This document shows, piece after piece, positions 8,850 through 37,386 of a DNA stretch of 43,369 bases; the first letter of the stretch is position 1, and the number at the start of each line of letters is the position of its first letter. The notes under the pieces were generated by a model. It was not told the DNA's origin and ran no database searches. It was given only the letters and a program-made list of their open reading frames with translations. The DNA comes from Candidatus Poribacteria bacterium (GTDB lineage Bacteria > Poribacteria > WGA-4E > JAJDTR01): the NCBI GenBank assembly GCA_028820655.1, contig JAPPIK010000030.1, positions 1 through 43,369 of the forward strand, read 5' to 3'. Made by a program: the position numbers and the translations under genes.

Positions 8850-9263
8850 TCAAAAAGTAGCGGCTTTCTCAAAGAACTCTATGTCGACCACGTTTACATC
8901 GGCGTTTCGCGCATTCTCGGCAACTCGCTGCACTACCATCTCCCGAACAAACGGGATTGGGATGCGTTTGACACGATGGACCACCTCTTCGGTGCATCGC
9001 GTCGACGTATTGCCGAGAAATGGGCCTTCGCTTGGATTGGATTCGGCGGGATGGTCGCAGGTTTCCGGCACAAGCTGTTGCAGCCGCATCGAGACGTAGT
9101 CTGTGACCCACCCTTTGAGTGCTTCGCCCTTTTCTTCGCTCATTTCGGCGGGCCTCGGTTGCTTATCCAGTTTTTGGCTGATACCCACTAGAAGATTTTC
9201 CAGCCGATCCAGTCGGTCTTCTACGGCGGATAGGCGTTCTTCAACTTTGGTTTCGCTGCTCAC
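8850..9263 (-). CDS. Coiled-coil PCP_red-domain protein
   Basis: 137 residues. Residues 1-35 form a strong heptad coiled coil ('VEERLSAVEDRLDRLENLL'). A polar linker follows, then residues 91-135 resemble the PCP_red domain (the small C-terminal domain of light-independent protochlorophyllide reductase subunit B): 'VKRIPIPFVREMVVQRVAENA' then 'DVNVVDIEFFEKA'. The GTG start at 9263 is preceded by AAAGGAG eight bases upstream. It follows the radical SAM/PCP_red gene in the direction of transcription, with 101 bases between. In BchB this domain binds at the substrate tetrapyrrole site; its role in stand-alone proteins is unknown. Confidence 0.82.
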   Translation of the reverse strand: MSSETKVEERLSAVEDRLDRLENLLVGISQKLDKQPRPAEMSEEKGEALKGWVTDYVSMRLQQLVPETCDHPAESNPSEGPFLGNTSTRCTEEVVHRVKRIPIPFVREMVVQRVAENARNADVNVVDIEFFEKAATF

Positions 9264-9364
9264 TGTTCTATCTCCTTTGCGTAGGGGTGAAACACAAAAA
9301 TCTAAACTGTATTATGCGGGGAGTTTGCAATCCCGATTTTCGGTATGCCTCCCTCTTCAATCAT

Positions 9365-10666
9365 CTAGCGGCGCGGGCGAAATGACGGAATCCCCGTTTT
9401 GTCAAACTTCTCTTTGACCGCTTTCATTGTCTCGGGCGTGATTTCAAGATAACCGTGTTCGCGGGCATACCGTTCCACGCTCTTGATTACCATCCCTCGC
9501 GCGAAAGATGGTACGCGCTTTAGTCTCTTCTGTGCGAGTTCGGTCCAGCGCAACTCATAGTCAACCTCGGCGGCAAACGGTGTCGTCTTCTCGAAACTAA
9601 TAGCTTGACTGCCGTACTGCCCCGGTTGATACTCGCACGATTCATCCTCGGCGAGGTAGTTCCCCGAAGCGGCATAAGCGCGCGCACGGCAACCGCCGCA
9701 GACATCGCGAAACTCGCACGCGCCGCATTTCCCTTCCAGGAGTTGGCGATTTCGCAGCTCCCGGAAGACTTTTGACTCGTTCCACAACTCCCCGAAACTC
9801 CGGTCTTTCAAATTGCCGACGCTAACCGGCATGTACGGACACGGCGTCAGGTCACCTTCGGGTGAGATACGGCAGTAGTAGACTCCGCACGGGCACGTGC
9901 CGCCGGGATAAGCTTGCAGAAACGGTGAATCGGACTGCTGCTCGTAAATGGCGCGTTTGTAATGGGGAGCGCACTTTGCGGCAACGAGCATTTTGCCCCG
10001 GTATTGCGCTTGCAACTCAAAGAGCTTGGAGAGCAGCTTCTCGTACTGCTGCGGTGTGATGTCCATGACCGTCTTCCCTCGTCCCGTTTTGACGAGGAAA
10101 TAGATATTAATGACCTTGGCTCCCAACTCATGCGCGAATTCGACAATCTGCGGAATCTCGTCGTAATTCCAGCGCGTCACGGAGGTTTGCACCAAAAAAT
10201 CCAGATTGGCGCGTTTCAGTGCCTCGATACCGCTCATCGTGGCTTCATAGGCGCCCTCCATTCCCCTGAATTTGTCGTGATTGACCGCGTCCACGGCATC
10301 GAGGCTTATCCCCGCACCACTCACGCCATGGCCGCTCATCAGCCGAACCACTTCGTCGTTTAGCAACGCCCCGTTGGTACCCATTACGACCAAGAATCCG
10401 GTCTGCGCGGCATACTCGGAAATTTTCAGTATGTCGGGGCGCAGCAGCGGTTCGCCGCCCGTGAGTATCAGAAGAATGTTGGGGTTGACATCCGCAATCT
10501 CATCGATCACTCGAAAGCATTGAGACTGTGTCAACTCCGTGTCCCGATGGTAGCCCGTGGGAAATTCGTTGGTATCTACAAATCCCGCAGGTAGATAACA
10601 GTGCTCACATTTGAGATTGCATAGCCGTGTGATATTCCATGAGACGGCTTGGACTTTCGTTTCCAT
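9365..10666 (-). CDS. AhbD/NirJ-type radical SAM/SPASM protein fused to PCP_red
   Basis: 433-residue cytosolic enzyme. The radical SAM cluster motif is C16-x3-C20-x2-C23, with 'LTGGEPLLRPD' for SAM binding. The SPASM region carries C258, C260, C265, C276, C314, C317, C323, C326 and C344, with 'CRISPEGDLTPCPYMP' and 'CEFRDVCGGCRARAYA', the arrangement seen in AhbD and NirJ proteins of heme and heme d1 synthesis. Residues 374-420 form a PCP_red domain that ordinary AhbD/NirJ proteins do not carry to my knowledge. Known relatives oxidatively decarboxylate or cleave propionate chains of tetrapyrroles. A tetrapyrrole substrate is inferred, supported by the fused domain. A weak AGGA precedes the ATG. 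Confidence 0.88.
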   Translation of the reverse strand: METKVQAVSWNITRLCNLKCEHCYLPAGFVDTNEFPTGYHRDTELTQSQCFRVIDEIADVNPNILLILTGGEPLLRPDILKISEYAAQTGFLVVMGTNGALLNDEVVRLMSGHGVSGAGISLDAVDAVNHDKFRGMEGAYEATMSGIEALKRANLDFLVQTSVTRWNYDEIPQIVEFAHELGAKVINIYFLVKTGRGKTVMDITPQQYEKLLSKLFELQAQYRGKMLVAAKCAPHYKRAIYEQQSDSPFLQAYPGGTCPCGVYYCRISPEGDLTPCPYMPVSVGNLKDRSFGELWNESKVFRELRNRQLLEGKCGACEFRDVCGGCRARAYAASGNYLAEDESCEYQPGQYGSQAISFEKTTPFAAEVDYELRWTELAQKRLKRVPSFARGMVIKSVERYAREHGYLEITPETMKAVKEKFDKTGIPSFRPRR

Positions 10667-10732
10667 TTTTCCGGAATTCCTAGCAAACCAATCGTTTTAT
10701 CTCAGCAATTCTAGAATCCAGCGCCCAATCCA

Positions 10733-11224
10733 TTATCCCGCATTCAAGCGCAACGAAAGGACAAGCACTATGACGCCGGCGAACATCGCCAAGATTCCGA
10801 ATCCGTTTGTCAGTCGTTGCAGCCTTGCAATCCTTAACGCGTCGACGTTCGGGTCCGTCGCCGCTGTTTCCAGTCTCCTGTTGAAAACGGCGATATGTAG
10901 GGCGTGGAACAACGTCATCAATCCGACAAACGCGAGTTTGGCTACGAAGTCGATGAAGTAACTTCGCGGAAAGTTCATCTGTGTGTTCAATCCGACGAGG
11001 AAGGCATTCATCGCACCCGTTATCAGCAGTATATGGATAGTGAATCGGATGATATGACGAAGGCGATTCCGAATCGCCGTCGTGTGCCGGATGCTCTCGG
11101 CGACCGGAAAACACTTTCTCAGCGCGGGTGCTGCGATGCTCACTGAAAACAGGATTCCGCCAAGCCAAACGATAGCGGCGACGAGGTGAATCCAACGTAT
11201 GACGAGTTCGACGAATATGCGCAT
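10733..11224 (-). CDS. CopD-like membrane protein
   Basis: 163 residues with four transmembrane helices. 'VIRWIHLVAAIVWLGGILF' at the N-terminus is the signature of the CopD/DUF4149-like group, and histidines fall in helices (H13, 'FTIHILLITGAMN', 'LFHALHIAVF'), compatible with heme or copper binding. Related proteins are proposed to take part in copper import or cytochrome assembly; the precise job is not known. It lies between two PCP_red genes on the same strand, 56 bases downstream of the zinc-ribbon PCP_red gene. Confidence 0.8.
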   Translation of the reverse strand: MRIFVELVIRWIHLVAAIVWLGGILFSVSIAAPALRKCFPVAESIRHTTAIRNRLRHIIRFTIHILLITGAMNAFLVGLNTQMNFPRSYFIDFVAKLAFVGLMTLFHALHIAVFNRRLETAATDPNVDALRIARLQRLTNGFGILAMFAGVIVLVLSLRLNAG

Positions 11225-11280
11225 TGACCGGCGGAACCTGTGACCTGCGGACGCTGTTACATTTCGTTTGGGGCGCGGCG

Positions 11281-11805
11281 CTACATGCCGAAATTTCCGC
11301 GCGCAGCGTCCATCACCTCGCCCGTAATTTCAGCTATCCCTTTTTCGCGAGCGAATTCTTCAATTCCGGCTTTAGCCATGGATTGGACAAAACTTGGAAT
11401 CCGATTCAGGCGTTCAAGCGCATCCTCTGTCCATACGAGATCAACTGGCTCCGGCGCCTGATTCTGAAAAGCGTCTGCAACCACCGATGTGAACGGACAC
11501 TTGCCGCCTTCCGGCTCAGACGCGGTCGACGAGGCGTGCTCGGGAGCATGACCTGACGAGAATGCTCCCTCATTCGGGTCGCTCAGAAATGAACGCACCA
11601 TCTGCATCGGGGGTGCGCTATCACTCTTTCCACCGAGCTGAACGTCGAGTGACTTGAGCATCTGGGTTTCCCACGGGTTCATGTGCATGGCGATTTCCCC
11701 AAAGCAATCAGGGCACTCGAATATTGCGGTCAACGCGCCGCCCTCGGGTGCTTTCGATTCTTTGAATTTCATGGCTGTGTTGCATTCAAGGCATAGGAAT
11801 TTCAT
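11281..11805 (-). CDS. Zinc-ribbon PCP_red-domain protein
   Basis: 174 residues. An N-terminal zinc ribbon (C5-x2-C8 and C31-x2-C34) is followed by a low-complexity linker and a PCP_red domain at about residues 124-170 ('VWTEDALERLNRIPSFVQSM' then 'FAREKGIAEITGEVMDAA'). GGAG lies seven bases before the ATG. Two further cysteine/histidine-bearing positions ('GGKCPFTS') occur in the linker. No catalytic domain is present, so it is more likely a carrier, adaptor or sensor than an enzyme. The Mrp-type ATPase gene is immediately upstream, 115 bases away. Confidence 0.85.
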   Translation of the reverse strand: MKFLCLECNTAMKFKESKAPEGGALTAIFECPDCFGEIAMHMNPWETQMLKSLDVQLGGKSDSAPPMQMVRSFLSDPNEGAFSSGHAPEHASSTASEPEGGKCPFTSVVADAFQNQAPEPVDLVWTEDALERLNRIPSFVQSMAKAGIEEFAREKGIAEITGEVMDAARGNFGM

Positions 11806-11920
11806 CGATTAGCTCCGGACTTGCAAGAACGTGGGACGTGGGCGTGGACTTACATCGACAAAAAATTATAAGTAACATCAAATAGGCTGGTGTATATATA
11901 AAAAGTGTTTGTGTCTTGAA

Positions 11921-12814
11921 TTATGTATTGTGGTTGAAAAAGGATTCGGTTTTTTCCGCGATTTCCGAAATGCTGTGGCTAGCGGAGGTGTCTGGGTATT
12001 TCTCCACGAATGTGTTTCCGTTATCGGCAGCCATTGAGATCCGTGGGTCGAACGGAATTTTTCCGAGGAGTGGTATTTGAAATCGCCGTGCCATTTCCGC
12101 CGTGTCGCTCGCGGGAAACAGGTTTTCAGTTTTGCCGCAGTCTGCGCACACGTATGCCGCCATGTTTTCAACGAGACCCACGATCGGTATATTGACTATT
12201 TCTTTTGCCATCGTCAACGATTTCTTTACGACAAGCTGCGACACTCCGGAAGGGATCGTGACGACAATTGTGCCACCAAGGTTTGGTAACAAATCGATGA
12301 GATTCGGCAATCGATCTGTTCCCGGCGGCAAATCAATCAGTAGATAGTCAAGGGATCCCCATTCGGTGTCTGACAGAAACTCGCGGAGCGCTGAAATTTC
12401 CATCGTTCCTCGCCACGTGAACGCGTCTTTTTGCGTTTGGGCTTCCCATAGGACCGGGGTATCGTCGTCCTTGAGGAACAGATCCATGGACATTACTTTT
12501 ACGCCTAACGGACTAGTGGCTGGTGTGACACCCTCAGTTCCGTATTCAACGCTTGCACCTCGCACGCCCATCATCTTGGCGATTGAGGGCCCGTTGATGT
12601 CAGCATCGAGTACACCAACACGCTTGCCCCGCAAGGCGAGGGCCGAGGCGAGATTCGCCGTTATCGAGCTTTTTCCGACACCACCCTTCCCGCTCATAAT
12701 GGCAACGGTATGGGATACGGACTGCAGCCGTTTTGTTAAGCGACCGACTTGCCGGGCCACTTGCCCGGCGACGTCGGATCCGCCATCGCTTGGGAGGTCG
12801 TTGTAGGTCTTCAT
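11921..12814 (-). CDS. mrp: Mrp/NBP35-type iron-sulfur carrier ATPase
   Basis: 297-residue cytosolic P-loop protein. It has the deviant Walker A motif 'SGKGGVGKSS' (41-50), 'DADINGPS' switch (70-77), 'DLPPGT' (161-166) and the cluster-binding pair C223-x2-C226. Mrp/ApbC/NBP35 proteins bind a bridging 4Fe-4S cluster as a dimer and deliver it to target proteins. The N-terminal MIP18-like domain seen in many long Mrp proteins is absent, so this is the short form. Its neighbours include a radical SAM/SPASM enzyme with three predicted clusters, which makes cluster delivery to that enzyme an attractive but unproven role. Confidence 0.93.
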   Translation of the reverse strand: MKTYNDLPSDGGSDVAGQVARQVGRLTKRLQSVSHTVAIMSGKGGVGKSSITANLASALALRGKRVGVLDADINGPSIAKMMGVRGASVEYGTEGVTPATSPLGVKVMSMDLFLKDDDTPVLWEAQTQKDAFTWRGTMEISALREFLSDTEWGSLDYLLIDLPPGTDRLPNLIDLLPNLGGTIVVTIPSGVSQLVVKKSLTMAKEIVNIPIVGLVENMAAYVCADCGKTENLFPASDTAEMARRFQIPLLGKIPFDPRISMAADNGNTFVEKYPDTSASHSISEIAEKTESFFNHNT

Positions 12815-12946
12815 GTCTTACGCTGCATGGTCTAGAGATGAACCCTGAAGAAGGCTATCGACACTACACAATCCCCGAGACGTGCGTCGCTGTCGCAAGT
12901 GAACCGTTGAATTTCGTCCAATTTGAATAGAATCGTTCGATTCCGA

Positions 12947-13175
12947 TCAATGGTAGATATACAGCGGAATTTCTGCGTGATTAATCAGGGATTTTGTCGC
13001 GCTGCCAAAGACAAACTCTGACGCGGTTCGTTTGCCGTACGCCCCCATGGCGAGCAGATCTATCTCATGCTCTCGGATATAGGACAGGATGGCTTTATCC
13101 GGCCGCCCGAGAATACTCTGAACGATCAAGACACACAAGTATTTCGGCGAAATTCAGCGGGGATTCGTTGGCCAC
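12947..13175 (-). pseudogene. Universal stress protein, internally deleted and frameshifted
   Basis: A GTG at 13175, five bases after GGAGG, opens a frame whose product has the USP N-terminus ('FAEILVCLDRSEYSRAA') and then stops after 26 residues. The C-terminal half of a USP continues in another frame down to 12947 ('GRPDKAILSYI', 'DLLAMGAYGK', 'EFVFGSATKSLI'). About 80 residues remain of a usual 140-150, so roughly 65 residues are deleted and the frame is broken at the junction near 13100. The intact ribosome-binding site suggests decay is recent. No alternative single start rescues it. Confidence 0.8.
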
Positions 13176-13253
13176 CTAGACCTCCGTTCAATGTGAGACA
13201 CGTGCGACTTGCATGTTTTTGATGTGATACGTAATGCGTAGAGTGATTTGATA

Positions 13254-13457
13254 TCATCGGTGCTTGGGATTTGATTCCTGAGTTTGACCACTACGATATT
13301 CAGCAATCGCCTCAGACGCCATCTTGGACAATGTATCTTGAGAATCAGCGAATCGTCGAGTCCATCGTTTCTCAGATTGGAGTTCTGCAAACGCATCTTG
13401 TTCGCTTGGCGATAGCTTTGAAGCCTCGGCAAACGCTTCTTCCAGTCGTGCTGTCAT
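13254..13457 (-). CDS. Orphan antitoxin-like protein, shortened
   Basis: 67 residues. 'LEEAFAEASKLSPSEQDA', 'EKRWTRRFADSQDTL' and 'AEYRSGQTQ' match a family of small antitoxin-like proteins I recall from cyanobacteria and uncultured bacteria. In that family a hydrophobic 'A..ILEEL' helix usually joins the first two blocks; here about eight residues seem to be missing. No toxin gene follows: the next sequence downstream is the decayed universal stress gene. It may be a remnant rather than a working gene. Confidence 0.55.
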   Translation of the reverse strand: MTARLEEAFAEASKLSPSEQDAFAELQSEKRWTRRFADSQDTLSKMASEAIAEYRSGQTQESNPKHR

Positions 13458-13682
13458 CAGGAAATCACCATATGGAAATCCGGGCCGCGATATTACGAAC
13501 GGTAAAGATCGACACGAAACCTTGAAAAGTTCTGCGAATACGATCTGTGAGCCCCAGCACTCGCTATACCATCACGGCATCTTCCAAGCGGAACGAAGTT
13601 TTGCATCGTTTTAGTGTCAACCCTTGTCGCTTAGACCGCTATCGGGACCTCCACTAATGCTGTCCGGATCGTGACGGGCTCA

Positions 13683-14744
13683 TTAACTTTGTTTCCGTGG
13701 GAGTGTGATCTGATCCGGAACGACAATCTCGCCTGCAATAATCTGCGCTTTTAGCGATTCAACGCGATTTAAGATTTCGTCGGAAAGTAGAGACTGATTG
13801 TGTTCATCAACGGCGTAGCTGACCCCGCCGTCTCCAAGTCCGAGGTATCGCGCTCCTCCTATGAAGGTACCCTCGGCAGTTTCATTGATTACTTTGATCA
13901 CGGAAGCCGAAAGTTCTTTGACCATGCTCGTCAGGACTATGCCGGGGTCGAGGTAGTTGCCGTTCGAATCAACCCATATGATGAATTTTTGCTGCTCTCT
14001 CGCCGCTTCGAGCACTCCGTTGCCAGCTCCGCCCGCAGCAGTATAGATTACATCTGCCCCGTTCTTATATTGCGCCAATGCCATCTCTTTCGCCCTTTCC
14101 GGCATTCCGAAACCGGTTGCATCTTCGCTGATGTACTCCACGATGACTACGGCGTCAGGCTTGACCGCTTGAACCCCGGCAACGTATCCGGCTTCAAACT
14201 CCCGCAGCAACGGAACATCGGCTCCGCCAATATAGCCAATCTTCCCACTTTCCGATTTCAGTGCGGCGATTGCACCCACTAGAAACGAGCCCTCGTTTGC
14301 TCTGTAGTTGATGGATGCGACATTTGGAACATCAAGGGCAACATCAAAGATCGCAAATTTGACATCGGGGAAGTCGGGCGCCGCCATCGCTAGAGGCGCT
14401 CCCATCTGGTAACCTGCCGTCAATACGAGATCTGAACTCTGAGCGGCTTCCCTTATCTGCATCTCCGCCACTGCCGGATCGCTCTCCATTCCGGCAATCT
14501 CGGTGAGGACAATGCCGAGTTCTGCTTCGGCCGTTCTTACACCGATATGAAAACTATCACAGTAACCGGAGTCGCCAATACAATCGCTCGGATAAATCAT
14601 GGTGACGCGAAGAGGGACGGCATCAGCGTCGTCCGGCACGCCCGAAAGAATTGCTTGCTGAATAACGTCGCAGCCAGCTACTCCGATACAAAGCAGTGCT
14701 AATATCAGCGCGGGAATCGATTTCGTTACGCTAAAACTCCTCAT
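13683..14744 (-). CDS. BMP-family substrate-binding lipoprotein
   Basis: 353 residues. A lipoprotein signal peptide ends in the lipobox 'GVAGC' (acylated C25). The mature protein is a periplasmic-binding fold of the BMP/PnrA group ('KIGYIGGADVPLLREFEAGY', 'DVIYTAAGGAGNGVLEAA', 'IIWVDSNG'). Known members bind purine nucleosides or related ligands for ABC import. The ATG at 14744 is preceded by AGGAG; the frame extends further upstream but without signal-peptide character. No ABC ATPase or permease of this type is next to it, so its transporter partner is either elsewhere or absent. The 225 bases after the antitoxin-like gene show no gene. Confidence 0.92.
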   Translation of the reverse strand: MRSFSVTKSIPALILALLCIGVAGCDVIQQAILSGVPDDADAVPLRVTMIYPSDCIGDSGYCDSFHIGVRTAEAELGIVLTEIAGMESDPAVAEMQIREAAQSSDLVLTAGYQMGAPLAMAAPDFPDVKFAIFDVALDVPNVASINYRANEGSFLVGAIAALKSESGKIGYIGGADVPLLREFEAGYVAGVQAVKPDAVVIVEYISEDATGFGMPERAKEMALAQYKNGADVIYTAAGGAGNGVLEAAREQQKFIIWVDSNGNYLDPGIVLTSMVKELSASVIKVINETAEGTFIGGARYLGLGDGGVSYAVDEHNQSLLSDEILNRVESLKAQIIAGEIVVPDQITLPRKQS

Positions 14745-14887
14745 ATTTTCTCCTGTTTGATAGATGATTTCCCACTGAATTCGTGATGTCGAATGGTCGA
14801 AATGGTAGCACAAGAGATGACTGAATGCAAGGTTTGAGGAGAAGAAGGTGAACACCGAACACAATATCGCTCGTCGTAAGATAGGCT

Positions 14888-14904
14888 GGTGCGCAGTGCG
14901 CACC
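14888..14904. repeat. GGTGCGC-AGT-GCGCACC hairpin
   Basis: Perfect 7-bp stem directly abutting the stop codon of the USP/PCP_red gene. No T-run on the minus strand, so it is more likely an interspersed palindrome that has settled at the 3' end than an intrinsic terminator. Confidence 0.65.
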
Positions 14905-16815
14905 CTACAGGTTCTTGTTCTGATCTTGCTGATAGTACGTGCCGAGGACTTCGTTATCCAAGCTGCGTCCCTCCTCAATCACCTGCGCGGCAAATTCTAG
15001 GCTGATTGTCTTGAGATTCGCCTCCCGTGCGCGTTGCTCGACGCGGGACAGGGTGATGTTGCGCATGAATCCGGCGGGGACAAGTTCCAGGCGTTCGCGG
15101 GCGTCCGGCGTCCATTCAAACGTACTTTCAATCGATTCCTCTTGAGAAGCGTCGGAGGATTCACGGGACTGGGCGACTGCTTTGAGTTCGGGAGCGTCTT
15201 CGCGAACAGCGGACGCTTGGTCCATGCTCTCGTTAACTATCCGCATGGCAAAGTCGTTGGTGATGGTGTCAATTTTCTGGGTGCGCGCCGATTTTTCGAT
15301 TCGCGCCTTGACGTTGCGCCTCATGTAACCGCGCGGTACATTCCGCAACGCCTTCTTCGCCTGATCCGACCACTGTAGACGGAGCCCGTCGAAGGTCTGT
15401 TCCTCACTCACGCCGCCCTCTTGGTCTGCGATCGTCTGGAGGGAGTCTTTGTCAACCATCTGGAAGTGCTCGCCATCCACACCGCAGACAGGACATTTTA
15501 CGGGCTGCTGGTCACGCGCGGCATAACCGCAATCGCCGCAGATAAAGGTCTTGACGGCATTCGAGTCCATTACGGTTTGCGTCGCGATCTGTTTCGCAAC
15601 TTTGGTCATCCGCTCCGCCGACCGCCCCGGCATAAAGGCTTCCATCGCCTGTTCAATCACACTCTCGGTAATCACGGAATGGCCGCGTTCAATGGCAAAA
15701 CGGTGGACAGCGGTGCGCGCGATGCCCTGTATCTGCGGCGGTGCTTTCGCCATCCGATCCATTGCTTCCTGCGTCCATACCACGGTCTCTTCCGCCTTGA
15801 CATCAATTTTTGGGACATATCGAGCGCTTGAGAGCAGTACGTTGCAGGGCGCAAGCCGCAGCAAATTTTCAGTGTTGCTGCCAATATCCATATCTGTCTC
15901 GCTGTGGACTCCGATTCTTCCTAAAACAAGCATCCACGGTTGGGTTCTACGGGTATATTGCAGTATTTTCTCGAAGGCTTTGCCATCTAGTAAGGTGATC
16001 TTTAGGTCGTAACTGTGATCTTCCTTGGCAATGGTTCGGGCAATTTCCAAATGGGATTGATAGATTTTGGCGAGTCCGGTGTCGATAACCTCTTCGTGCA
16101 ACTGTTCCTGTTCTTTGAATCTGAAAGTTTTTGATGCCCGCTCCGTTAAGACGTTGACCACCGAATTGAACACGACATAGTGAAGATAGGGGTCGTAAAC
16201 GCCGATCGCCTCCACTTGCCTGTCAAACGCCGCGCCGATGCGGATGGCTGTTTTCAATCCGGCGAATGATTCGGGGCTGCCGTCGATTCCCACGAGGATA
16301 TGACCGGGTTGGTCAAGAGTACCCTCAGTATTTCGGACGACTAGGGTATCGGTCTGGATTCGCCTCACAACTCGCTCCACCACGCCGCCGAGCAGGCTGT
16401 CTTTCACCGCACCCATTCCGAGGGCGCCCATTATCACGAGGTCGTAATCACTCGTTTGAATATCCTCCGCCAGCTTAATGAAGTGCTTGCCTTCCGGCAT
16501 CTTGGCTTCAAACGGTATTTCATTTTCGGCGCACTTTTCCTTCATTACCTCCAAATAGGAATCGGAAATTAGCTGCAACCCCATCGTAATCAGGGTGTCA
16601 TGAATCCGGCGCTGTTTTTCGAGTTCGGCTTCGTCCTGGTATTCTTCGGGGAGCGTATACTCCATCTGTTTGAACCGCACGTCGTGCATTTTGGCGGCAT
16701 ATACGTGGGAGCCGACGAGTTGCGAGCCAAATTTCTTGGCGAACTCTACGGCGAAATTGACGCTTGCATCCGAATGATCGGAATTGTCAACGGGCACATA
16801 GATTTTTTTGAACAT
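14905..16815 (-). CDS. USP-USP-PCP_red-rubredoxin-like-PCP_red-PCP_red fusion
   Basis: 636-residue cytosolic protein with six modules. Residues 1-162 and 170-330 are two universal stress protein domains; the first keeps the nucleotide-binding glycine run 'MGALGMGAVKDSLLGG', while the second is degenerate there. Residues 345-395 are a first PCP_red domain, 426-445 a rubredoxin-like zinc ribbon (C426-x2-C429, C441-x2-C444), and 480-533 and 566-617 second and third PCP_red domains ('LRNVPRGYMRRNV', 'LELVPAGFMRNIT'). GGAGGAAGG precedes the ATG, and a promoter with an embedded palindrome lies at 16848-16877. The architecture suggests a stress- or nucleotide-responsive protein that also handles a metal or tetrapyrrole ligand; no activity can be assigned. 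Confidence 0.9.
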   Translation of the reverse strand: MFKKIYVPVDNSDHSDASVNFAVEFAKKFGSQLVGSHVYAAKMHDVRFKQMEYTLPEEYQDEAELEKQRRIHDTLITMGLQLISDSYLEVMKEKCAENEIPFEAKMPEGKHFIKLAEDIQTSDYDLVIMGALGMGAVKDSLLGGVVERVVRRIQTDTLVVRNTEGTLDQPGHILVGIDGSPESFAGLKTAIRIGAAFDRQVEAIGVYDPYLHYVVFNSVVNVLTERASKTFRFKEQEQLHEEVIDTGLAKIYQSHLEIARTIAKEDHSYDLKITLLDGKAFEKILQYTRRTQPWMLVLGRIGVHSETDMDIGSNTENLLRLAPCNVLLSSARYVPKIDVKAEETVVWTQEAMDRMAKAPPQIQGIARTAVHRFAIERGHSVITESVIEQAMEAFMPGRSAERMTKVAKQIATQTVMDSNAVKTFICGDCGYAARDQQPVKCPVCGVDGEHFQMVDKDSLQTIADQEGGVSEEQTFDGLRLQWSDQAKKALRNVPRGYMRRNVKARIEKSARTQKIDTITNDFAMRIVNESMDQASAVREDAPELKAVAQSRESSDASQEESIESTFEWTPDARERLELVPAGFMRNITLSRVEQRAREANLKTISLEFAAQVIEEGRSLDNEVLGTYYQQDQNKNL

Positions 16816-17783: not shown

Positions 17784-17912
17784 AGACCTACATTCAACTG
17801 TTATCGCCTTATTCACATGACTGAGCGATAGCATCTATTCGGGACTTTCCTCTTTGCGCTTCCGCCCCCAGAAACCACCTAGAAGATGTCCCAGGATTGT
17901 CCCGGTGAATAA

Positions 17913-18134: not shown

Positions 18135-18797
18135 CTATCCCAGCAAGGTTTTTATGTCTCGCCGAAGGTGCCGGAGATTGGCCTTGATTCGACTATCATA
18201 GTAGCCTCGAACGGTTCCCTGTCTATCCACAAGAACGAAGCGGGTGCTATGGAGGATTTCACTTCCCTGATGTCCGACCGCAAGGTTGAATCCGTCGTGC
18301 GCAAGCTGATAAATTGATGACTTTTCGCCAGTCAAGAAGGACCACCGGCGGTGGTCCGCTCCAAAACTCTGAGCATAGCGGGAGAGCACTGCGGGCGTAT
18401 CGCGCTCCGGATCGACCGAGAAAGAGACGAATCGGAGTTCAGACTCGGCCGCAAACTCATCTTGAAGCCTCCTCAATTCATCGGTCATCGGCGGACAAAT
18501 AGTGGGACAACTTGTGAAGATAAAGTCCGCGACCCACACTTTACCCTCCAAATCGGCTAGTGAAAGCGCGCCACCGTTTTGATCGGTTAGGGAGAAGTCC
18601 GGCAGTTGGTGATTCTCCGAAAGCCTCGACAATGGGCTCTCCGACACAGACTTTTCGCTTGGTCGATGCATGAACGATTTTATGTTCGCAGCGACGATAG
18701 CGGCAATCACGAAAACCAACACACCCCAAAGCAAAACGGGCAACAAACGCCTCTTCGATGTTGTCTTCTGTTCTAGAGATTTGTCTTCGGTTTCCAT
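18135..18797 (-). CDS. SCO1/SenC copper chaperone
   Basis: 220 residues, membrane-anchored by a helix at about 18-38, with a periplasmic thioredoxin-like domain. The copper site is complete: C97 and C101 in 'TSCPTICPPM' and H183 in 'SEILHSTRF'. SCO proteins load and reduce the CuA centre of cytochrome oxidase subunit II. The ATG at 18797 is chosen over a TTG at 18845, since residues before it are not conserved. It ends the oxidase gene run and is 58 bases from the subunit IV stop, consistent with co-transcription. Confidence 0.93.
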   Translation of the reverse strand: METEDKSLEQKTTSKRRLLPVLLWGVLVFVIAAIVAANIKSFMHRPSEKSVSESPLSRLSENHQLPDFSLTDQNGGALSLADLEGKVWVADFIFTSCPTICPPMTDELRRLQDEFAAESELRFVSFSVDPERDTPAVLSRYAQSFGADHRRWSFLTGEKSSIYQLAHDGFNLAVGHQGSEILHSTRFVLVDRQGTVRGYYDSRIKANLRHLRRDIKTLLG

Positions 18798-18855
18798 AGC
18801 GTCAAGCACAGACGTATCGCAGATGTCAAAGACGATCCTGAGCAATCGCGTTACG

Positions 18856-19191
18856 TTAATGTGATGTATCTACCGCATGAGTCTCGGCTTTGGCTTCTTC
18901 TGCATTCCGGGCATCTGTCATTAGATCCGGCAAAAGCATAAAAACGAGAAAAACACAAATGATAAAGGGTGTCAGCGCAATAGCCGTCAAGGTTTTCTGC
19001 TCAAATTTCAAGTGCATGAAATATAGCGCGACGTAAGCCGCTTTAGAACATGCCATACCGATGAGAAGAATAAACTTTACACTTGTGGGAATCCAGTCTG
19101 GGATGACAACAAGGACTTCGGCGATTGTGAGTGCAAGCAAAATCCAAAAGATCCTGAAGTATTTGGGGTGTTCTTTGTCAGAGTGTTCCAT
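18856..19191 (-). CDS. Cytochrome c oxidase subunit IV (bacterial type)
   Basis: 111 residues with three transmembrane helices, the length and layout of the prokaryotic COX4 family. 'AAYVALYFMHLKFE' is the typical second-helix end. It stabilises the subunit I-III core. GGAG is seven bases before the ATG, and the gene begins 20 bases after the subunit III stop. Confidence 0.92.
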   Translation of the reverse strand: MEHSDKEHPKYFRIFWILLALTIAEVLVVIPDWIPTSVKFILLIGMACSKAAYVALYFMHLKFEQKTLTAIALTPFIICVFLVFMLLPDLMTDARNAEEAKAETHAVDTSH

Positions 19192-19211
19192 CTCAATTCT
19201 CCATTTCGAGA

Positions 19212-19856
19212 TTACAGTAGATAAACGAAGGTGAAGACCATGATCCAGATTAGATCAACGAAGTGCCAATAGAGTCCCAAAATCTCTACCTTGTGATTGT
19301 AGTCAGCCGTGTACGTTCCCCGCATCCCCTGAATCAAGATAACGATGAGATAAATGACCCCGCCGGTGACATGGGCACCGTGAAAACCTGTAATCGTGTA
19401 GAAGGTTGGGCCAAAGAGCTTCGAACCGGAAATCGCAGCACCTGACAAACCTTCATGAGGAATTTCATTGAGGGTGAGGCCGTGCTTGATTAGTGCGGTC
19501 CATTCATACGCTTGCAACCCCAAGAAGATTAGCCCCCCAAGGATTGTCAAGCCTAGAAAGGTGCACATTCTCGACTGGTTTCCCTTCTGAATGGCTTCGA
19601 GAGCTTTGACCATGGTAACACTACTGCAGATTAGCAGGAAGGTCATAAATGCCGTGAGGTTTATGCCGAGCACTTCTGATGGGGGCGCCCACTCGGCCGC
19701 GCCGGCGCGGATTGCTCCGTAGGCGGCGAGCAAAGCCCCAAAAGACATTGCGTCACTAATGAGGAAGAGCCACATCCCCAACTTGCCCTGGCTGTCGGGG
19801 GTTAGAGACGGCTCATAGACATCAGCAGAATGATCTATGGCAGCAGTTTCTGACAA
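19212..19856 (-). CDS. Cytochrome c oxidase subunit III
   Basis: 214 residues with five transmembrane helices. 'LGMWLFLISDAMSFGALLAA', 'GLQAYEWTALI', 'FYTITGFHGAHVTGG' and 'GLYWHFVDLIWIMVFTFVYL' are subunit III motifs. The start is a TTG at 19856 with AAAGGAG eight bases before it; no ATG fits. This is the more conventional of two subunit III-like proteins in the cluster. Confidence 0.93.
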   Translation of the reverse strand: MSETAAIDHSADVYEPSLTPDSQGKLGMWLFLISDAMSFGALLAAYGAIRAGAAEWAPPSEVLGINLTAFMTFLLICSSVTMVKALEAIQKGNQSRMCTFLGLTILGGLIFLGLQAYEWTALIKHGLTLNEIPHEGLSGAAISGSKLFGPTFYTITGFHGAHVTGGVIYLIVILIQGMRGTYTADYNHKVEILGLYWHFVDLIWIMVFTFVYLL

Positions 19857-19888
19857 TTTTTCATACTCCTTTCATATCTGAGTGCGGT

Positions 19889-20116
19889 TCATTGATTGTA
19901 ACGCTGCTTGACGCGCTTAATCGAAAAAAATATGCCGCCGCCAACCAGGCTAAAAACGATGTAGGGCATCGCCATGAGAAATAGAATGCTCCACTTGAAA
20001 CCCTGTGCAATCGGGTCATCATCGAGTTTACATGACGGGCATGCTTGGACTACCGTCGGTATCACGAACAGCGCGTAAGCCGTAACCCCCGACATGAGTG
20101 AAAGATAGCGGCGCAT
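19889..20116 (-). CDS. Small CPSC-containing membrane protein
   Basis: 75 residues: a signal-peptide-like helix ending before 'QACPSCK', then a polar stretch and a second helix ('FLMAMPYIVFSLVGGGIFFS') with a basic tail. The CPSC motif would face the periplasm and could bind copper or form a disulfide. AAGGAG nine bases before the ATG at 20116 decides the start over a GTG at 20137. It lies between the two subunit III genes, so a role in oxidase assembly or stability is likely but unproven. Confidence 0.8.
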   Translation of the reverse strand: MRRYLSLMSGVTAYALFVIPTVVQACPSCKLDDDPIAQGFKWSILFLMAMPYIVFSLVGGGIFFSIKRVKQRYNQ

Positions 20117-20243
20117 TGTGGATATCTCCTTATTCACGATTTATAGTCAACACATACACTCCCGAATCACCGGAAACCACAATCCCTCATTCCTGCGAGA
20201 GGCAGACCGCCGTGATTGGGAACTATCTCTGGATTATTCCGAT

Positions 20244-20849
20244 TTAGACCAAATAGACCAACACATAAAGTATGGGCCACAGGACTACGACAAAGGTCCA
20301 GTAGATGGCGCAAATCTCCACGCCAAGGTGTTGATCGGCCGAAAATCGACCGGCGACTGCCTTGGCAAGAACTCCTAACACCCAAACGACCGCAAGCAAT
20401 GCGTGCAGTGCATGGCAACCGATGAGGACGTAGAAGATTGAACCGTACACCCCGGACGACAAAGTGAACCCATGATGCACCAATCGAACCCATTCGGTGC
20501 CCTGTACAATGAGGAAGATGGCACCGAGCACCCCGGTCACGAGCAACCAGATTCGAAGTTGATTCTGAAGCCCCCGGCGCACGGTGCGCAGGGCGCGAAT
20601 CATGGTATAACCGCTCAGAAGCAGGACAATCGTATTGATTCCGGTGATGCCAATCGGCAATCGTACGTCAGCCTGCGTAGGAGGCGGCCATGTGACACTT
20701 CCCAATCGAAACACAAGGAATGTTCCGATCAGACCCGCGAAAAACATGATTTCCGCCCCTAGAACTATTAAAATGGCTAGACGGGCATTGCTGGTCGGTT
20801 GCCCCACGTCGGCGGATTGATCATATGTCGCGTGTTCTGATTCGCTCAT
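20244..20849 (-). CDS. Second cytochrome c oxidase subunit III-like protein
   Basis: 201 residues with five transmembrane helices. 'VLGAEIMFFAGLIGTFLVFR', 'GTEWVRLVHHG', 'FYVLIGCHALHALLAV' and 'IYWTFVVVLWPILYVLVYL' are subunit III-like. It differs enough from the product of 19212-19856 to be an old paralogue. ATG at 20849 is preferred to the adjacent TTG. Both together may form a two-protein subunit III, or each may belong to a different assembly state. Confidence 0.9.
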   Translation of the reverse strand: MSESEHATYDQSADVGQPTSNARLAILIVLGAEIMFFAGLIGTFLVFRLGSVTWPPPTQADVRLPIGITGINTIVLLLSGYTMIRALRTVRRGLQNQLRIWLLVTGVLGAIFLIVQGTEWVRLVHHGFTLSSGVYGSIFYVLIGCHALHALLAVVWVLGVLAKAVAGRFSADQHLGVEICAIYWTFVVVLWPILYVLVYLV

Positions 20850-20901
20850 CAAAATGAGCCCTCACTGAAACAGCTATGAGAATTCTGTTGTATGCCGCAC
20901 T

Positions 20902-21012
20902 TCAGTTTTTCACCACAGCAAAGATCGTTGCGAAAACAAACAGGAGGACAAAAACTGCTAATAGGAATAATCCGAGGCGTCGATTTCGGGTTTGTTTTTC
21001 CCGGTCATTCAT
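20902..21012 (-). CDS. Hidden 36-residue single-helix membrane protein
   Basis: A short frame between the heme O synthase and subunit III-like genes: a basic N-terminus ('MNDREKQTRNRR') followed by one strongly hydrophobic helix ('LGLFLLAVFVLLFVFATIF') and 'AVVKN', ending TGA. GAGGAG lies about 11 bases before the ATG, 23 bases behind the preceding stop. Oxidase clusters often encode single-helix subunits of this size (CcoQ-like or subunit-IV-like), so I regard it as a real small subunit. Confidence 0.7.
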   Translation of the reverse strand: MNDREKQTRNRRLGLFLLAVFVLLFVFATIFAVVKN

Positions 21013-21035
21013 CCGAATCAAAACTCCTCATCTTG

Positions 21036-21938
21036 TCACGCGGTCTTATCAAGCGCCATAACAAGAAACACAAGAGGCAGATATATCAATGAAGCGTATA
21101 GCAACCGTTTCGCAGACACGGTTGTAGGAGAAATTGACAACTTAATACCGAATGCAAGAAATCCTATGCTCAAGACTAACGCCGCGAAGAAATAGAAGAT
21201 TCCCGCTATTCCAATCAAGGTGGGCAACAGTGCTACGACAAGCAGCGCCAAGCAGTTACTGACGATTTGTCGCCTTGTGCTCTTACCATCCGGGTGAACA
21301 ACCGGAAGCAACCGGAATCCTGCTTGTGCGTATTCATCGCGGTAGATGCATGCAATCGAAAGGGAGTGGGGAAGTTGCCAGAGAAATAGGATGGCGAAAA
21401 GCGCCCACGCATCAATATTGATTGTTCCGCGTGCGGCAACCCATCCGATGACCGGCGGCAATGCACCCGGAACCGCGCCGGCTACAGTGCAAAGCGGCGA
21501 CTTCTTTTTAAGCGGCGTATAGATGAACAGATAGGTCACGACGATAGCAGAGATAACCAATGCGCTTAACGGGTTTACACGGAGCGCAGTAAATGCGAGT
21601 CCACCGACGGTCAGTACCACGCCAAAGAATAACGCGGTTGTTGGTTCAACACGCTTGTCCGGCAAAGGACGGTTGCATGTGCGTACCATCTGTGCATCCA
21701 GGTCCCGTTCGAGGTATTGATTCAGAGCCAACACACCCGCCGCCGACAATCCGGTGCCGATAAAAGTTTCTGCTAACCGAACCCAATCGAGCGAACCCGA
21801 AGATGCGAGATAGAAACCGGCAGAGGTCGTAATCAGTATCATCGTTACGAGCCGTGGTTTGGTCAATTCTACGAAAGTTGACACTCGGCGTCTCAGATAA
21901 GTCAAGTCGTTGCCTAAGGTTTGAGTTGCTAACATCAT
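21036..21938 (-). CDS. ctaB: Protoheme IX farnesyltransferase (heme O synthase)
   Basis: 300-residue UbiA-family prenyltransferase with about eight to nine helices. Both aspartate-rich motifs are present: 'NQYLERDLDAQM' (73-84) and 'YRDEYAQAGFRLLP' (198-211), the sites that hold the Mg-farnesyl diphosphate. It converts heme b to heme O, which the next-upstream gene product oxidises to heme A. GAGG lies seven bases before the ATG pair. Confidence 0.95.
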   Translation of the reverse strand: MMLATQTLGNDLTYLRRRVSTFVELTKPRLVTMILITTSAGFYLASSGSLDWVRLAETFIGTGLSAAGVLALNQYLERDLDAQMVRTCNRPLPDKRVEPTTALFFGVVLTVGGLAFTALRVNPLSALVISAIVVTYLFIYTPLKKKSPLCTVAGAVPGALPPVIGWVAARGTINIDAWALFAILFLWQLPHSLSIACIYRDEYAQAGFRLLPVVHPDGKSTRRQIVSNCLALLVVALLPTLIGIAGIFYFFAALVLSIGFLAFGIKLSISPTTVSAKRLLYASLIYLPLVFLVMALDKTA

Positions 21939-22031
21939 ACTACAACCTCATTAAAATAAGACCACAGGTTACCCATCACCTTCGATGGACACTCGGCAAA
22001 CTAGCCGCTTGTTTTCCAACCATAGCGAACT

Positions 22032-23141
22032 TCATCCGTCAAGGGCTTGGCCCGTGCTCGTAAGCCGAAAAACGCTCAAGGTGACTATAGCGGATACGAC
22101 AAGCATCATCGCTCCGATTGCAACATGGGCAGTTGTGATTATCACGCTCATTGTAGAAGACACGACTTCACCGGCAGATGTGAATTCGGCGACGTATGCG
22201 GCACCGCCCAAAACCAGTTGAACGGCGAGCAAACCGCTGAGCACCATTAGCGGCCGCACAATACGAAAATACCCCAAATAATCTCTCAACGCGCGCCCAG
22301 AGAGCAAGAACACGTGAATTGTCACTAAAGCAGCAAAAAGTAGATGTGCGTCCAGTCGAGTCCCCGTATGCCTCAATATCGCGCCGAAGATAAATTGTAC
22401 ATAGATTAGCGCCAATGTAATGCCACTTAACCGTCTCAGTCGTGATGCACCCGCGTCTTGGATCGTCGGCCAATTCTGCATCCACCCGCGCGAGGTGAAC
22501 AGGACAAGACTTGCAGTCAACGCAAAAAACACTTGAGCAAAGCAGGCATGCACGATTGCGAGGAGCGTGCTCAAGTGCGTTACGCGCAGACCGCCCATCA
22601 CACCTTGCACAATGACTGCAACCAGTGTGATCGCACCAAGCAGTTTAAGCCATCGCCGATCATCCTTTGACCAGATTGCCAATAATAACACAATCGTCAA
22701 CAACCCAACGATTGAGCCGATCAGCCTATGGGTGTGTTCGTAAAGGACACCGTGTACGTAAACATCCAGCCTCGCCTCCGATTTAATCAGGGTATAGACT
22801 CGTTCATTCTCACTATCCGTGAGCCTCCACTTACCCTCCTCTTCTTTCGAGATTACGGTGTTATCTGAAATCGAAATCTCATTGTTCTCAAGCGCACCGC
22901 GTAGATTTTCGGTGAGATTGCCGCTCTCCAGATCCGTTTGAAGGATCGGGTCGATGCTGAACAGAAAACCGCTGACCGTTTTCGACACCGGATAAAGGAA
23001 CATATTGTATCCGAACGTCGTGGGCCAATCGGGAACGGCAAGCCCCGAATCTGTGCTAGTTACGATGCCTCCCATGCAGATTAGAACAAAAGTCATCACT
23101 GCCGTCAATATAGCAACTCGGTGAAGCCAACGATGGTACAT
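22032..23141 (-). CDS. ctaA: Heme A synthase (COX15/CtaA) with loop insertion
   Basis: 369 residues, eight predicted helices. Helix 1 is followed by 'STDSGLAVPDWPTTFGYNMF', then an inserted polar segment of about 65 residues (roughly 62-128, acidic, beta-looking), and then 'YEHTHRLIGSIVG', the heme-ligand block of the family. Later histidines ('LAIVHACFAQ', 'LLFAALVTIHVF', 'TTAHVAIG') fit heme b and substrate heme O ligands. It oxidises the C8 methyl of heme O to a formyl group. In ordinary family members the two first blocks are separated by only 15-25 residues, so the loop is unusual. No Shine-Dalgarno is visible. Confidence 0.93.
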   Translation of the reverse strand: MYHRWLHRVAILTAVMTFVLICMGGIVTSTDSGLAVPDWPTTFGYNMFLYPVSKTVSGFLFSIDPILQTDLESGNLTENLRGALENNEISISDNTVISKEEEGKWRLTDSENERVYTLIKSEARLDVYVHGVLYEHTHRLIGSIVGLLTIVLLLAIWSKDDRRWLKLLGAITLVAVIVQGVMGGLRVTHLSTLLAIVHACFAQVFFALTASLVLFTSRGWMQNWPTIQDAGASRLRRLSGITLALIYVQFIFGAILRHTGTRLDAHLLFAALVTIHVFLLSGRALRDYLGYFRIVRPLMVLSGLLAVQLVLGGAAYVAEFTSAGEVVSSTMSVIITTAHVAIGAMMLVVSAIVTLSVFRLTSTGQALDG

Positions 23142-23303
23142 GTCTAATTCATGGAAAGACTACTGCCTGAAAAGCGATGCGTCAATTGACGAGGCGTAAA
23201 ACATAACAAGAAAAGGGGCGCAGATGAACACGAAAAATAATCGGCTTCTTTCGCTGATCGACGAATCGATTTTGTCAGCGTTCATCGGCGTCCCAGACTG
23301 TGG

Positions 23304-25148
23304 TTAATCGGCAGTTGCCCCCGCTGCAATCGGCTCGTCGCGTGAGGGTTCGCCATCCGACTGCGTTTGCGGAATCCAGTCAGTTTCGGCACCGGGAACG
23401 CTGTATTCGTAGGGTCCGTGGTAAACACGCGGAATCTGATCGAAATTGCCGTGCGGCACCGGGGTCGGTGCGTGCCATTCGAGGGTGTTAGCGTGCCAAG
23501 GATTCTGTTCGGCTACCCTTCCTTTGAACATGCTCCAGAACACATTTACCAACAGAATAATCTGAGCGGCACCCAGAATAAATGCGCACATGGTAATAAA
23601 CTCGTTTATCCCTTGAAGATGCGCCAAATCGGTGTCAAGCGGATTATGGATGCGTCTACGATGTCCAGCTACGCCGATGATGTGCATCGGGAAAAACACA
23701 CCGTTAAAAGCGATGAAAGAGATCCAGAAGTGGATCTTGCCGAGTGCCGCATTCATGTGCCGCCCGAACATCTTGGGGAACCAGTAGAACACTGCTCCGA
23801 ACAACGCAAACACACTCCCGCCGAAGACAACATAGTGGATATGCGCGACGATGTAGTATGTATCGTGGATGTGGATGTCTACCGGCGAGTTTGCCATAAA
23901 GATACCGCTGAGCCCTCCAATTACAAACATGGATACGAAAGCAAGGGTGTGCAACATCGGTACCGTAAACTGAATAGACCCACGGAATAGGGTGCCTAAC
24001 CAGTTGAAGGTTTTTATCGCCGAAGGAACGGCAATCAACATCGTGGTCGTCATGAATGCCATGCTTAATTGGGGGTTCATTCCACTCTGAAACATGTGAT
24101 GTCCCCAGACAACCCAACTCAGAAAGGCGATGGAAATCATGGCGAACACCATGGACTTATACCCGAAGATCGGTTTTCTGGAAAAGACCGAAATCATTTC
24201 GGATGCGAGCCCCATGCCGGGTAGAATCAATATGTACACTTCGGGATGACCAAAGAACCAGAATAGGTGTTGCCAGAGGAGCGGTTCTCCGCCGCCTTCC
24301 GCCAGGAAGAATGATGTCCCCGCCATTCTATCGAACAGCAACAGCGCAAGTGCGGAGGCTACGACAGGGAACGCGAGCAACAGGAGAATTGCAACGATGA
24401 AGAGTGACCAGATCACCAGTGGAAGACGAAAGTAGGTCATACCCGGCGCCCGCATGTTGATGACGGTGGTAATGTAGTTGATCGACCCCATTAGCGAGGA
24501 AACACCCATGACAATCAGCGCCATGCACCAGAGGTTTTGTCCCCATATCACACCGGTAAAGTCGGGAACCGACGAGAGCGGCGCGTATCCGGTCCATCCC
24601 GCGGCGGCATGCCCACCGGGAACGAAAAATCCCGCCATCAAGATAACAGCGCCTAGCACACTCGTCCAGAAGGACAACATATTGAGCACGGGAAACGCCA
24701 TGTCTCTCGTGCCAATCATCAGTGGGATGAGGAAATTCCCAAAGGCACCAACAAGCAACGGTACAACGACGAAGAAAACCATGATGGTGGCGTGCATTGT
24801 AAAGAGCGCATTGTAGAACTCTGGCCCGATGATGCCGCCGTACATCGTTCGCTCAAACCAGTTCTCCTCATCGTCTTCGCCCCATCTTTCCCACCTACGA
24901 TCTGCTTCGGAGACGGCTTCACCTTCGTCTAGGTACTCTTGGGAAACCCCAATCATCGGAAGTGGCTTATCGGGCCAAGCAAGCTGCCAGCGGAACAGCA
25001 ACGCAAGCCCACCGCCGACCATGAACATAATCAAACCATAGATTAGGAATTGCTTGCCAATCATCTTGTGGTCGAGAGAGAAAATATATTTGCTGACAAA
25101 ACTCTCCTCGTGATGATGGTCATGCGATTCATTTGCGTGATCATTCAT
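23304..25148 (-). CDS. ctaD: Cytochrome c oxidase subunit I
   Basis: 614 residues, twelve or more helices. Heme a and a3/CuB ligand motifs are all present: 'ALFTMHATIMVF', 'FGHPEVYILILPG' (with the His-Tyr cross-link pair and the D-channel glutamate), 'WVVWGHHMFQSGM', and 'HDTYYIVAHIHYVVFGG'. 'MIGTRDMAFPVLN' supplies the D-channel aspartate, so this is an A1-type enzyme pumping protons and reducing oxygen to water. No cytochrome c domain is fused. The ATG at 25148 has AAGGAG ten bases upstream; a GTG 24 bases earlier is ignored. The 162 bases after the gene show nothing coding. Confidence 0.97.
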   Translation of the reverse strand: MNDHANESHDHHHEESFVSKYIFSLDHKMIGKQFLIYGLIMFMVGGGLALLFRWQLAWPDKPLPMIGVSQEYLDEGEAVSEADRRWERWGEDDEENWFERTMYGGIIGPEFYNALFTMHATIMVFFVVVPLLVGAFGNFLIPLMIGTRDMAFPVLNMLSFWTSVLGAVILMAGFFVPGGHAAAGWTGYAPLSSVPDFTGVIWGQNLWCMALIVMGVSSLMGSINYITTVINMRAPGMTYFRLPLVIWSLFIVAILLLLAFPVVASALALLLFDRMAGTSFFLAEGGGEPLLWQHLFWFFGHPEVYILILPGMGLASEMISVFSRKPIFGYKSMVFAMISIAFLSWVVWGHHMFQSGMNPQLSMAFMTTTMLIAVPSAIKTFNWLGTLFRGSIQFTVPMLHTLAFVSMFVIGGLSGIFMANSPVDIHIHDTYYIVAHIHYVVFGGSVFALFGAVFYWFPKMFGRHMNAALGKIHFWISFIAFNGVFFPMHIIGVAGHRRRIHNPLDTDLAHLQGINEFITMCAFILGAAQIILLVNVFWSMFKGRVAEQNPWHANTLEWHAPTPVPHGNFDQIPRVYHGPYEYSVPGAETDWIPQTQSDGEPSRDEPIAAGATAD

Positions 25149-25291
25149 TCGACACGAACTCCTTTCTTTCACATAAATATCATTTCTTACACCTAAACTG
25201 GACTATAAGGCGCTTCTTTAGGTTTGTTGGTCTCATTCTCTTGCATTAGTCTACTAAACCTATGGGCAAGATCCCAGCGTCCTGCTCGCCG

Positions 25292-25975: not shown

Positions 25976-26026
25976 TTCATTAAAATCTCCTTTCTGGGTC
26001 GCTGAATTTGTTAGAGAGGGCATCTC

Positions 26027-32067: not shown

Positions 32068-32198
32068 CGATGAAATCTCCAAATTGACGATCAATCAACT
32101 CATGTCGAATGAGGGGAGCACTCGGCACATGACACCGTGCTTCCCGGAAACTCTTGGTTGTGCGAATACTTTACCGATCGAGCCATTAAGCCGTATAG

Positions 32199-37373: not shown

Positions 37374-37386
37374 GACTACTCCAAAA

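Follow-up and report, generated by a model that had tools for sequence, protein, structure and literature searches.

A gene cluster conserved in Nitrospina, Nitrospira and Kuenenia encodes a cytochrome bd-like (bd-like) protein, an alternative NxrC, cytochromes c with one or two hemes, cupredoxin-like proteins and a single protein listed as a 'putative zinc finger' (PMC3578206, PMC6606698). The bd-like protein has 14 helices and a CydA-like N-terminus without the quinol site, and the alternative NxrC has a single membrane helix, to which two heme-binding motifs are added in Nitrospira (PMC3578206, PMC6606698). Such bd-like proteins were later termed OR-N type CydA; they are presumed to be cytochrome c-fed and are uncharacterised (PMC12342949, PMC10839748). 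The same genes were found at 28-37 kb of a 43,369-nucleotide contig of a Candidatus Poribacteria bacterium (JAPPIK010000030.1, assembly GCA_028820655.1), the whole of which is referred to here as the window; NXR alpha and beta genes were not seen in it. To these genes the window adds a set, at positions 8850-16815, whose products carry the PCP_red domain (PF08369) and which is unmentioned in all four of the papers cited above. This PCP_red set is real, is wider in spread than was noted in an earlier, sequence-only reading of this DNA, and is tied to that known but unexplained respiratory complex.

PF08369 is shared by the set with DPOR and COR (BchB, BchZ), including the C-terminal domain of BchB (2KRU), and with the standalone protein Asr4154 (2L09); BchB C-termini align with one member of the set, ZnPCP, over 50-80 residues. 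Whereas DPOR and COR contain a PF00148 nitrogenase-like core, the set proteins have PCP_red fused to a radical SAM enzyme (rSAM-PCP), a universal stress protein (Usp; UspPCP), a zinc ribbon (ZnPCP) or a coiled coil (PCPcc). An identity as DPOR or COR was rejected, since the PF00148 core was absent from all four of these proteins; it was present in all four sampled PCP_red proteins of the phototroph type. In the literature searched, which had most subscription journals outside its scope, neither PCP_red outside chlorophyll synthesis nor a description of the PCP_red set was found.

PCP_red domains in the window

As had been claimed from the sequence alone, the four proteins contain six PF08369 domains, five of them clear and one divergent (Pfam scan and profile comparison). 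The Pfam gathering cut-off for membership is 32.5 bits. The five domains above it were located in rSAM-PCP (56 bits), ZnPCP (63 bits) and UspPCP (three stretches, 94.5 bits in sum); the sixth, in PCPcc, fell short with a sub-threshold match of 22.6 bits (E = 1e-4). When PCPcc orthologues were compared by profile-profile alignment with PCP_red domains other than those of PCPcc, a match of 92% probability (E = 5e-7) was obtained, with the KRIPxFVR core aligned. The PCPcc C-terminus is near-identical across 17 Poribacteria sequences, with the conserved core HRVKRIPIPFVREM. Because of this conservation and the profile-profile match, the PCPcc domain is, as judged from its sequence, a real but divergent sixth PCP_red copy.

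Across the host genome (5.88 Mb, 95% complete) exactly six PF08369 domains were found, all of them in the window, and the next match had an E value of 0.18. Five matches within 8 kb, with E values between 1e-8 and 1e-17, and none elsewhere exclude chance. The same search of the 95%-complete assembly detected no BchB-type protein, the presence of which is argued against because all four sampled BchB-type proteins carry PF08369. The earlier statement that no bch gene is seen agrees with this for the BchB type; nitrogenase-like genes beyond that type were not searched for. The interleaving of genes for Mrp and a CopD-like membrane protein among the PCP_red genes was likewise confirmed.

Distribution and core of the PCP_red set

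PCP_red domains recurred in 37 of 40 relatives within the Poribacteria, which are sponge-living bacteria, and were present in 71 of the 85 Poribacteria genomes, almost wholly in one order, whose family f3 is without them. Amino acid identity among Poribacteria was 75-94% for UspPCP and 75-90% for rSAM-PCP. When public genomes were scanned with a ZnPCP alignment, 59 Candidatus Poribacteria loci were obtained and four outside (Acidobacteria, one; Gemmatimonadales, one; other bacteria, two); none was named as Nitrospirota, Nitrospinota or Planctomycetota. Each of the four outside genomes had exactly four PCP_red matches, namely one in ZnPCP, two in the Usp fusion and one in the radical SAM protein. 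No UspPCP homologues were present in the plasmids or viral contigs searched.

The PCP_red genes co-occurred in other genomes, even where the locus was split, in agreement with their proposed association; thus neither of the outcomes named in the sequence-only reading as refuting it (domains not matching PF08369, genes not co-occurring) was observed. In Poribacteria the locus is often intact; in genomes G012, G026 and G039 it is divided into one part with rSAM-PCP, the CopD-like gene and PCPcc and another with ZnPCP, Mrp and UspPCP, and co-occurrence therefore exceeds a single inherited block. Mrp adjoined ZnPCP at every examined locus that had both on one contig. The window Mrp is a PF10609 protein like the MrpORP/ApbC iron-sulfur (Fe-S) carriers, from which it is set apart by this specific link to ZnPCP. 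At two loci (L131 and L133) the same two unrelated genes, one FdrA-like and the other for a second conserved protein, were seen by eye to follow Mrp-ZnPCP at a distance.

Since the four outside genomes have the ZnPCP, UspPCP and rSAM-PCP proteins, Mrp pairs with ZnPCP, and neither PCPcc nor the CopD-like gene was found in the loci of other phyla, the core set consists of Mrp, ZnPCP, UspPCP and rSAM-PCP and is present in Poribacteria, Gemmatimonadota and Acidobacteriota. PCPcc and the CopD-like protein were rejected as core members.

Co-occurrence with the bd-like module

The bd-like protein was searched for in the same genomes as PF08369, a sample of 631 from the Poribacteria, Gemmatimonadota and Acidobacteriota. 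Both elements were present in 157 genomes and neither in 438; two had the bd-like protein only and 34 had PCP_red only. In the Poribacteria there were 68 genomes with both, 14 with neither, none with the bd-like protein only and three with PCP_red only, these being incomplete assemblies (G033, G069 and G073). The corresponding numbers for the Gemmatimonadota were 61, 160, one (G325) and 27, and for the Acidobacteriota 28, 264, one (G561, in which the gene is cut at the contig end) and four. Fisher P values, uncorrected for phylogeny, were 1.8e-13, 1.9e-35 and 6.8e-34, respectively. Among the 31 PCP_red-only genomes of the Gemmatimonadota and Acidobacteriota, 29 had one or two matches, and four sampled proteins were of the nitrogenase-like BchB type; most of these genomes are therefore probably phototrophs, as judged from the four proteins. 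One of them with two matches, G247, has an rSAM-PCP gene.

In the Gemmatimonadota the set and the bd-like module were mostly adjacent, in the order Mrp-ZnPCP-(small membrane protein)-UspPCP-rSAM-PCP-bd-like-cytochrome c-cytochrome c-EB_dh-cupredoxin-like-COX2/COX1, with a bd-like homologue 51-55% identical to the window protein. In several Acidobacteriota the order was bd-like ... UspPCP-Mrp-ZnPCP-rSAM. Only one Poribacteria genome outside the main order, G046, had either element, and it had both on the same contig. In G104 the radical SAM and Mrp genes were nearly those of the acidobacterial genome G460, which suggests contamination or transfer, and the G312 locus is on a 9.5 kb contig. In trees, a single clade (100/99) unites the bd-like gene of the poribacterium G046 with those of the acidobacterial genome G466 and the Gemmatimonadota genome G325, and their cytochromes c group likewise. 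The bd-like module has thus moved between phyla, and PCP_red proteins persist in two of these three genomes.

These distributions bear on the suggestion that a conserved neighbourhood was inherited as a block and is functionally unconnected to the bd-like module. The bd-like gene of Poribacteria is 17 kb from UspPCP and much of the co-distribution is vertical, as mere linkage would have it, but the same pairing is seen in three phyla despite differing gene orders and split loci, it persists on bd-like sub-lineages that moved between phyla, and bd-like-only genomes are nearly absent. This suggestion is very improbable; the link of the set to the bd-like complex, which the sequence-only reading had not drawn, is well supported by co-distribution and adjacency.

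COX1 (PF00115) was found in 25 of the 36 tested genomes with neither element and went undetected in G046, where the two occur together. The set thus goes with the bd-like module and not with aerobic respiration as such, and a role in general cytochrome oxidase maturation was rejected. Genes for an aa3-type oxidase are adjacent in several genomes, yet they do not track the set. The sequence-only reading had proposed a common process such as tetrapyrrole handling or cytochrome maturation. A process in common is supported, one of respiration, since the set is nearly co-extensive with the bd-like complex; general cytochrome maturation gained no support, given the many COX-bearing relatives without the set.

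The bd-like module and neighbouring genes

With a PF01654 score of 64.9 bits and the CydA heme ligand in its N-terminal half, the bd-like protein of the window belongs to the cytochrome bd superfamily. The 28-37 kb region has the composition of the published bd-like/alternative NxrC (alt-NxrC) cluster, namely a bd-like protein, an EB_dh gamma-like protein with two CXXCH motifs and a transmembrane helix, mono- and diheme cytochromes c and cupredoxin-like proteins (Table 1). The missing quinol-site pattern and the gene context make the bd-like protein a putative OR-N type CydA (PMC3578206, PMC10839748). In the listed Poribacteria genomes of family f2, an insertion of about 33 residues after residue ~200 of this protein was seen as a split BLAST match; it was absent from families f1 and f4. 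The 'putative zinc finger' protein of the 2013 paper (PMC3578206) is possibly related to ZnPCP.

Table 1. Features of the PCP_red set and of the respiratory genes in the window. All genes of the set and of the bd-like module are on the minus strand.
Feature	Position	Strand	Description
PCPcc	8850..9263	-	Coiled coil, divergent C-terminal PCP_red; invariant ETC-HP and CTE stretches; so far Poribacteria only
rSAM-PCP	9365..10666	-	Radical SAM/SPASM (CNLKCEHC, Cys-rich SPASM), C-terminal PCP_red; best NCBIfam AhbD and NirJ2, both below cut-off
CopD/DUF2269-like membrane protein	10733..11224	-	Four transmembrane helices; conserved neighbour in Poribacteria; not detected in loci of other phyla
ZnPCP	11281..11805	-	N-terminal Cys pairs (CxxC, CPxC), invariant GGKCPF, C-terminal PCP_red
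Mrp/ApbC-type Fe-S carrier P-loop ATPase	11921..12814	-	PF10609; adjoins ZnPCP
UspPCP	14905..16815	-	Tandem universal stress protein, rubredoxin-like Zn/Fe motif, three PCP_red domains
aa3-type oxidase genes (Sco, COX4, COX3 x2, CtaB, CtaA, COX1, COX2)	18135..26023	-	Lie between the PCP_red and bd-like modules
Cupredoxin-like/CarboxypepD_reg exported protein	27999..28787	-	bd-like module
alt-NxrC-like protein	28855..30591	-	Two c-heme motifs (CXXCH), EB_dh/type II DMSO-reductase gamma-like heme b domain, C-terminal transmembrane helix
Monoheme cytochrome c	31285..32094	-	bd-like module; membrane-anchored
Diheme cytochrome c	32267..33787	-	bd-like module
bd-like membrane protein	33892..35703	-	CydA N-terminal half; H60 aligned with E. 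coli CydA H19, E147 with E107; GRQPW/Q-loop pattern absent
Second cupredoxin-like gene	35778		bd-like neighbourhood

A large respiratory gene cluster, unmentioned in the sequence-only reading, spans 18-43 kb of the window. Beside the bd-like and aa3 modules is a bc-type complex (37002-42484) with affinity to ExtP/ExtQ models, comprising a cytochrome b/b6 (41675), a subunit IV-like protein (40623), a 1044-residue protein with eight CXXCH motifs (37387) and a small cytochrome c (37002). Three further genes were noted around the set. A gene for a Bmp/PnrA-like substrate-binding lipoprotein (13683-14978), likewise not noted in that reading, is inserted within it, and was rejected as a member since it is at the locus only in a genome of the same genus. 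A protein with nucleotide modification associated domain 3 (Nmad3; 16956-17834), encoded between UspPCP and the oxidase genes, is also there only in the same-genus genome. A 126-residue protein without Pfam matches (8351-8731) is 75-91% conserved beside PCPcc in Poribacteria, including at a split locus.

Relationship of rSAM-PCP to tetrapyrrole-acting enzymes

The highest family scores of rSAM-PCP were obtained with AhbD (TIGR04545, 326.6 bits), NirJ2 (TIGR04055, 305 bits) and TIGR04053 (270 bits); all others were at most 187 bits. The radical SAM/SPASM architecture is that of AhbD and NirJ, but rSAM-PCP has an additional PCP_red domain and is far below the curated cut-offs, scoring 326.6 bits against the 500 required for AhbD and 187 and 305 bits against 515 and 500 for the NirJ families TIGR04051 and TIGR04055. 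The PF17805 partners of AhbD and NirJ (AhbA/B and the NirDLGH-type decarboxylases) are missing from most genomes searched: of 13, G000 and 11 others were without PF17805, and only G046 was positive. Ferrochelatase was found in 11 of 13 genomes searched. Because most hosts have ferrochelatase and are without AhbA/B-type decarboxylases, the set is not a siroheme route, and siroheme-dependent formation of heme b or heme d1 was rejected for the sampled genomes. The nir cluster for heme d1 remains an analogy, in that the gene for a tetrapyrrole radical SAM enzyme is next to that for the respiratory enzyme using its product (cytochrome cd1), but its partners are different, its siroheme decarboxylases are absent here, and the target here would be the bd-like complex.

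A HemQ/chlorite-dismutase-like gene (4461-5210) is conserved near the set in several Poribacteria and suggests a coproporphyrin-type final heme step. Together with ferrochelatase and the top score for AhbD, this gene could be taken to mean that the set performs an oxygen-independent conversion of coproheme to heme b, the AhbD function, feeding respiration if HemQ or oxygen-dependent steps fail. That role is improbable: only genomes with one respiratory complex have the set, most COX-bearing relatives are without it, the rSAM-PCP score is well under the AhbD cut-off, and AhbA/B are absent.

Alternatively, rSAM-PCP could modify a protein residue on a subunit of the bd-like complex, in the manner of enzymes acting on ribosomally synthesized and post-translationally modified peptides (RiPPs) or of sulfatase maturases, with PCP_red as a protein-protein docking domain. 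SPASM enzymes commonly act on peptides, a docking module would be expected to recur among the partners of a set, as PCP_red does in several, and the best Foldseek matches of the rSAM-PCP model, itself weak, include PqqE, SkfB, SuiB and anSME. This alternative was judged unlikely, as the closest function-assigned families by far are the tetrapyrrole-acting AhbD and NirJ, neither a short precursor peptide nor an RRE-like domain was seen in the cluster, and the sole described context of PCP_red is in tetrapyrrole reductases. AlphaFold2 models of rSAM-PCP and UspPCP had mean pLDDT values of 62 and 68, and ligand or interface inference from them was dropped as the models were too weak.

Features of ZnPCP and UspPCP would suit a signalling or stress-control unit, with tandem Usp, rubredoxin-like and PCP_red domains as sensors of ATP, redox state, O2/NO or free heme through which the bd-like complex is adjusted. 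In an alignment of ZnPCP, both Cys pairs (CxxC and CPxC) and the GGKCPF motif were invariant, the last of which recalls CP heme-regulatory motifs. Within Poribacteria UspPCP ranks with the most conserved members, its second Usp domain keeps the ATP-type motif G-x2-G-x9-GS, and the folds closest to it are those of tandem Usps, among them Rv2623 and TTHA0350, the latter solved as an ATP complex. Such a unit would leave the radical SAM enzyme and the Mrp Fe-S carrier unexplained, and signalling is an unlikely function of the set.

Proposed function of the PCP_red set

The PCP_red set probably serves the bd-like/alt-NxrC-like complex; that it does so through tetrapyrrole modification is a possibility given slightly less than even weight. 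We infer the action of the set on the complex, the tetrapyrrole ligand and the order of steps, chemistry included. Mrp would feed Fe-S clusters to rSAM-PCP, as its gene pairing and family suggest. By its family, the AhbD/NirJ-type relative rSAM-PCP may alter a tetrapyrrole (heme or coproheme, probably heme b) presented by PCP_red. ZnPCP and UspPCP might then serve as carriers or insertion factors for heme, or as ATP-dependent regulators, and pass heme to the bd-like subunit or its partners. The bd-like complex would be the target, as co-distribution and adjacency indicate. A putative shared tetrapyrrole ligand, as suggested in the sequence-only reading, would fit the AhbD/NirJ affinity of rSAM-PCP.

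Several points weigh against this proposal. Fisher values ignore phylogeny, and the co-occurrence in part reflects common ancestry of one gene cluster. The sample is of Poribacteria, Gemmatimonadota and Acidobacteriota, whereas the bd-like cluster was described from Nitrospira, Nitrospina and anammox bacteria. The main exception, G325 (locus L222), in which the cytochrome c and EB_dh genes are duplicated, has a bd-like gene and no PCP_red. The score with TIGR04053, a family without assigned function, makes a non-tetrapyrrole substrate possible, the literature searched yielded no case of an isolated PCP_red domain binding a tetrapyrrole, and the AlphaFold2 models are too weak to place PCP_red relative to the active site.

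In its fullest form the proposal is tentative and somewhat doubtful: the set would form an as yet undescribed route for the synthesis and insertion of a non-standard heme (e.g. a chlorin or a side-chain-altered heme) needed by the bd-like complex, with PCP_red as a general tetrapyrrole-handling domain and with the complex common to Poribacteria, Acidobacteriota and Gemmatimonadota and probably to nitrite oxidisers and anammox bacteria.

PF08369 has been used as a phototrophy marker (PMC12815261). It is unsafe as such, since in more than 150 of the surveyed genomes it accompanies the bd-like module, within multi-gene sets that lack the BchB architecture. The set probably builds or controls the bd-like complex, perhaps by heme modification, and is probably unrelated to chlorophyll. 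The bd-like/alt-NxrC complex of nitrite oxidisers and anammox bacteria has been labelled enigmatic for more than 10 years, and a co-inherited set with a tetrapyrrole-type radical SAM enzyme makes the cofactor of the bd-like complex experimentally testable.

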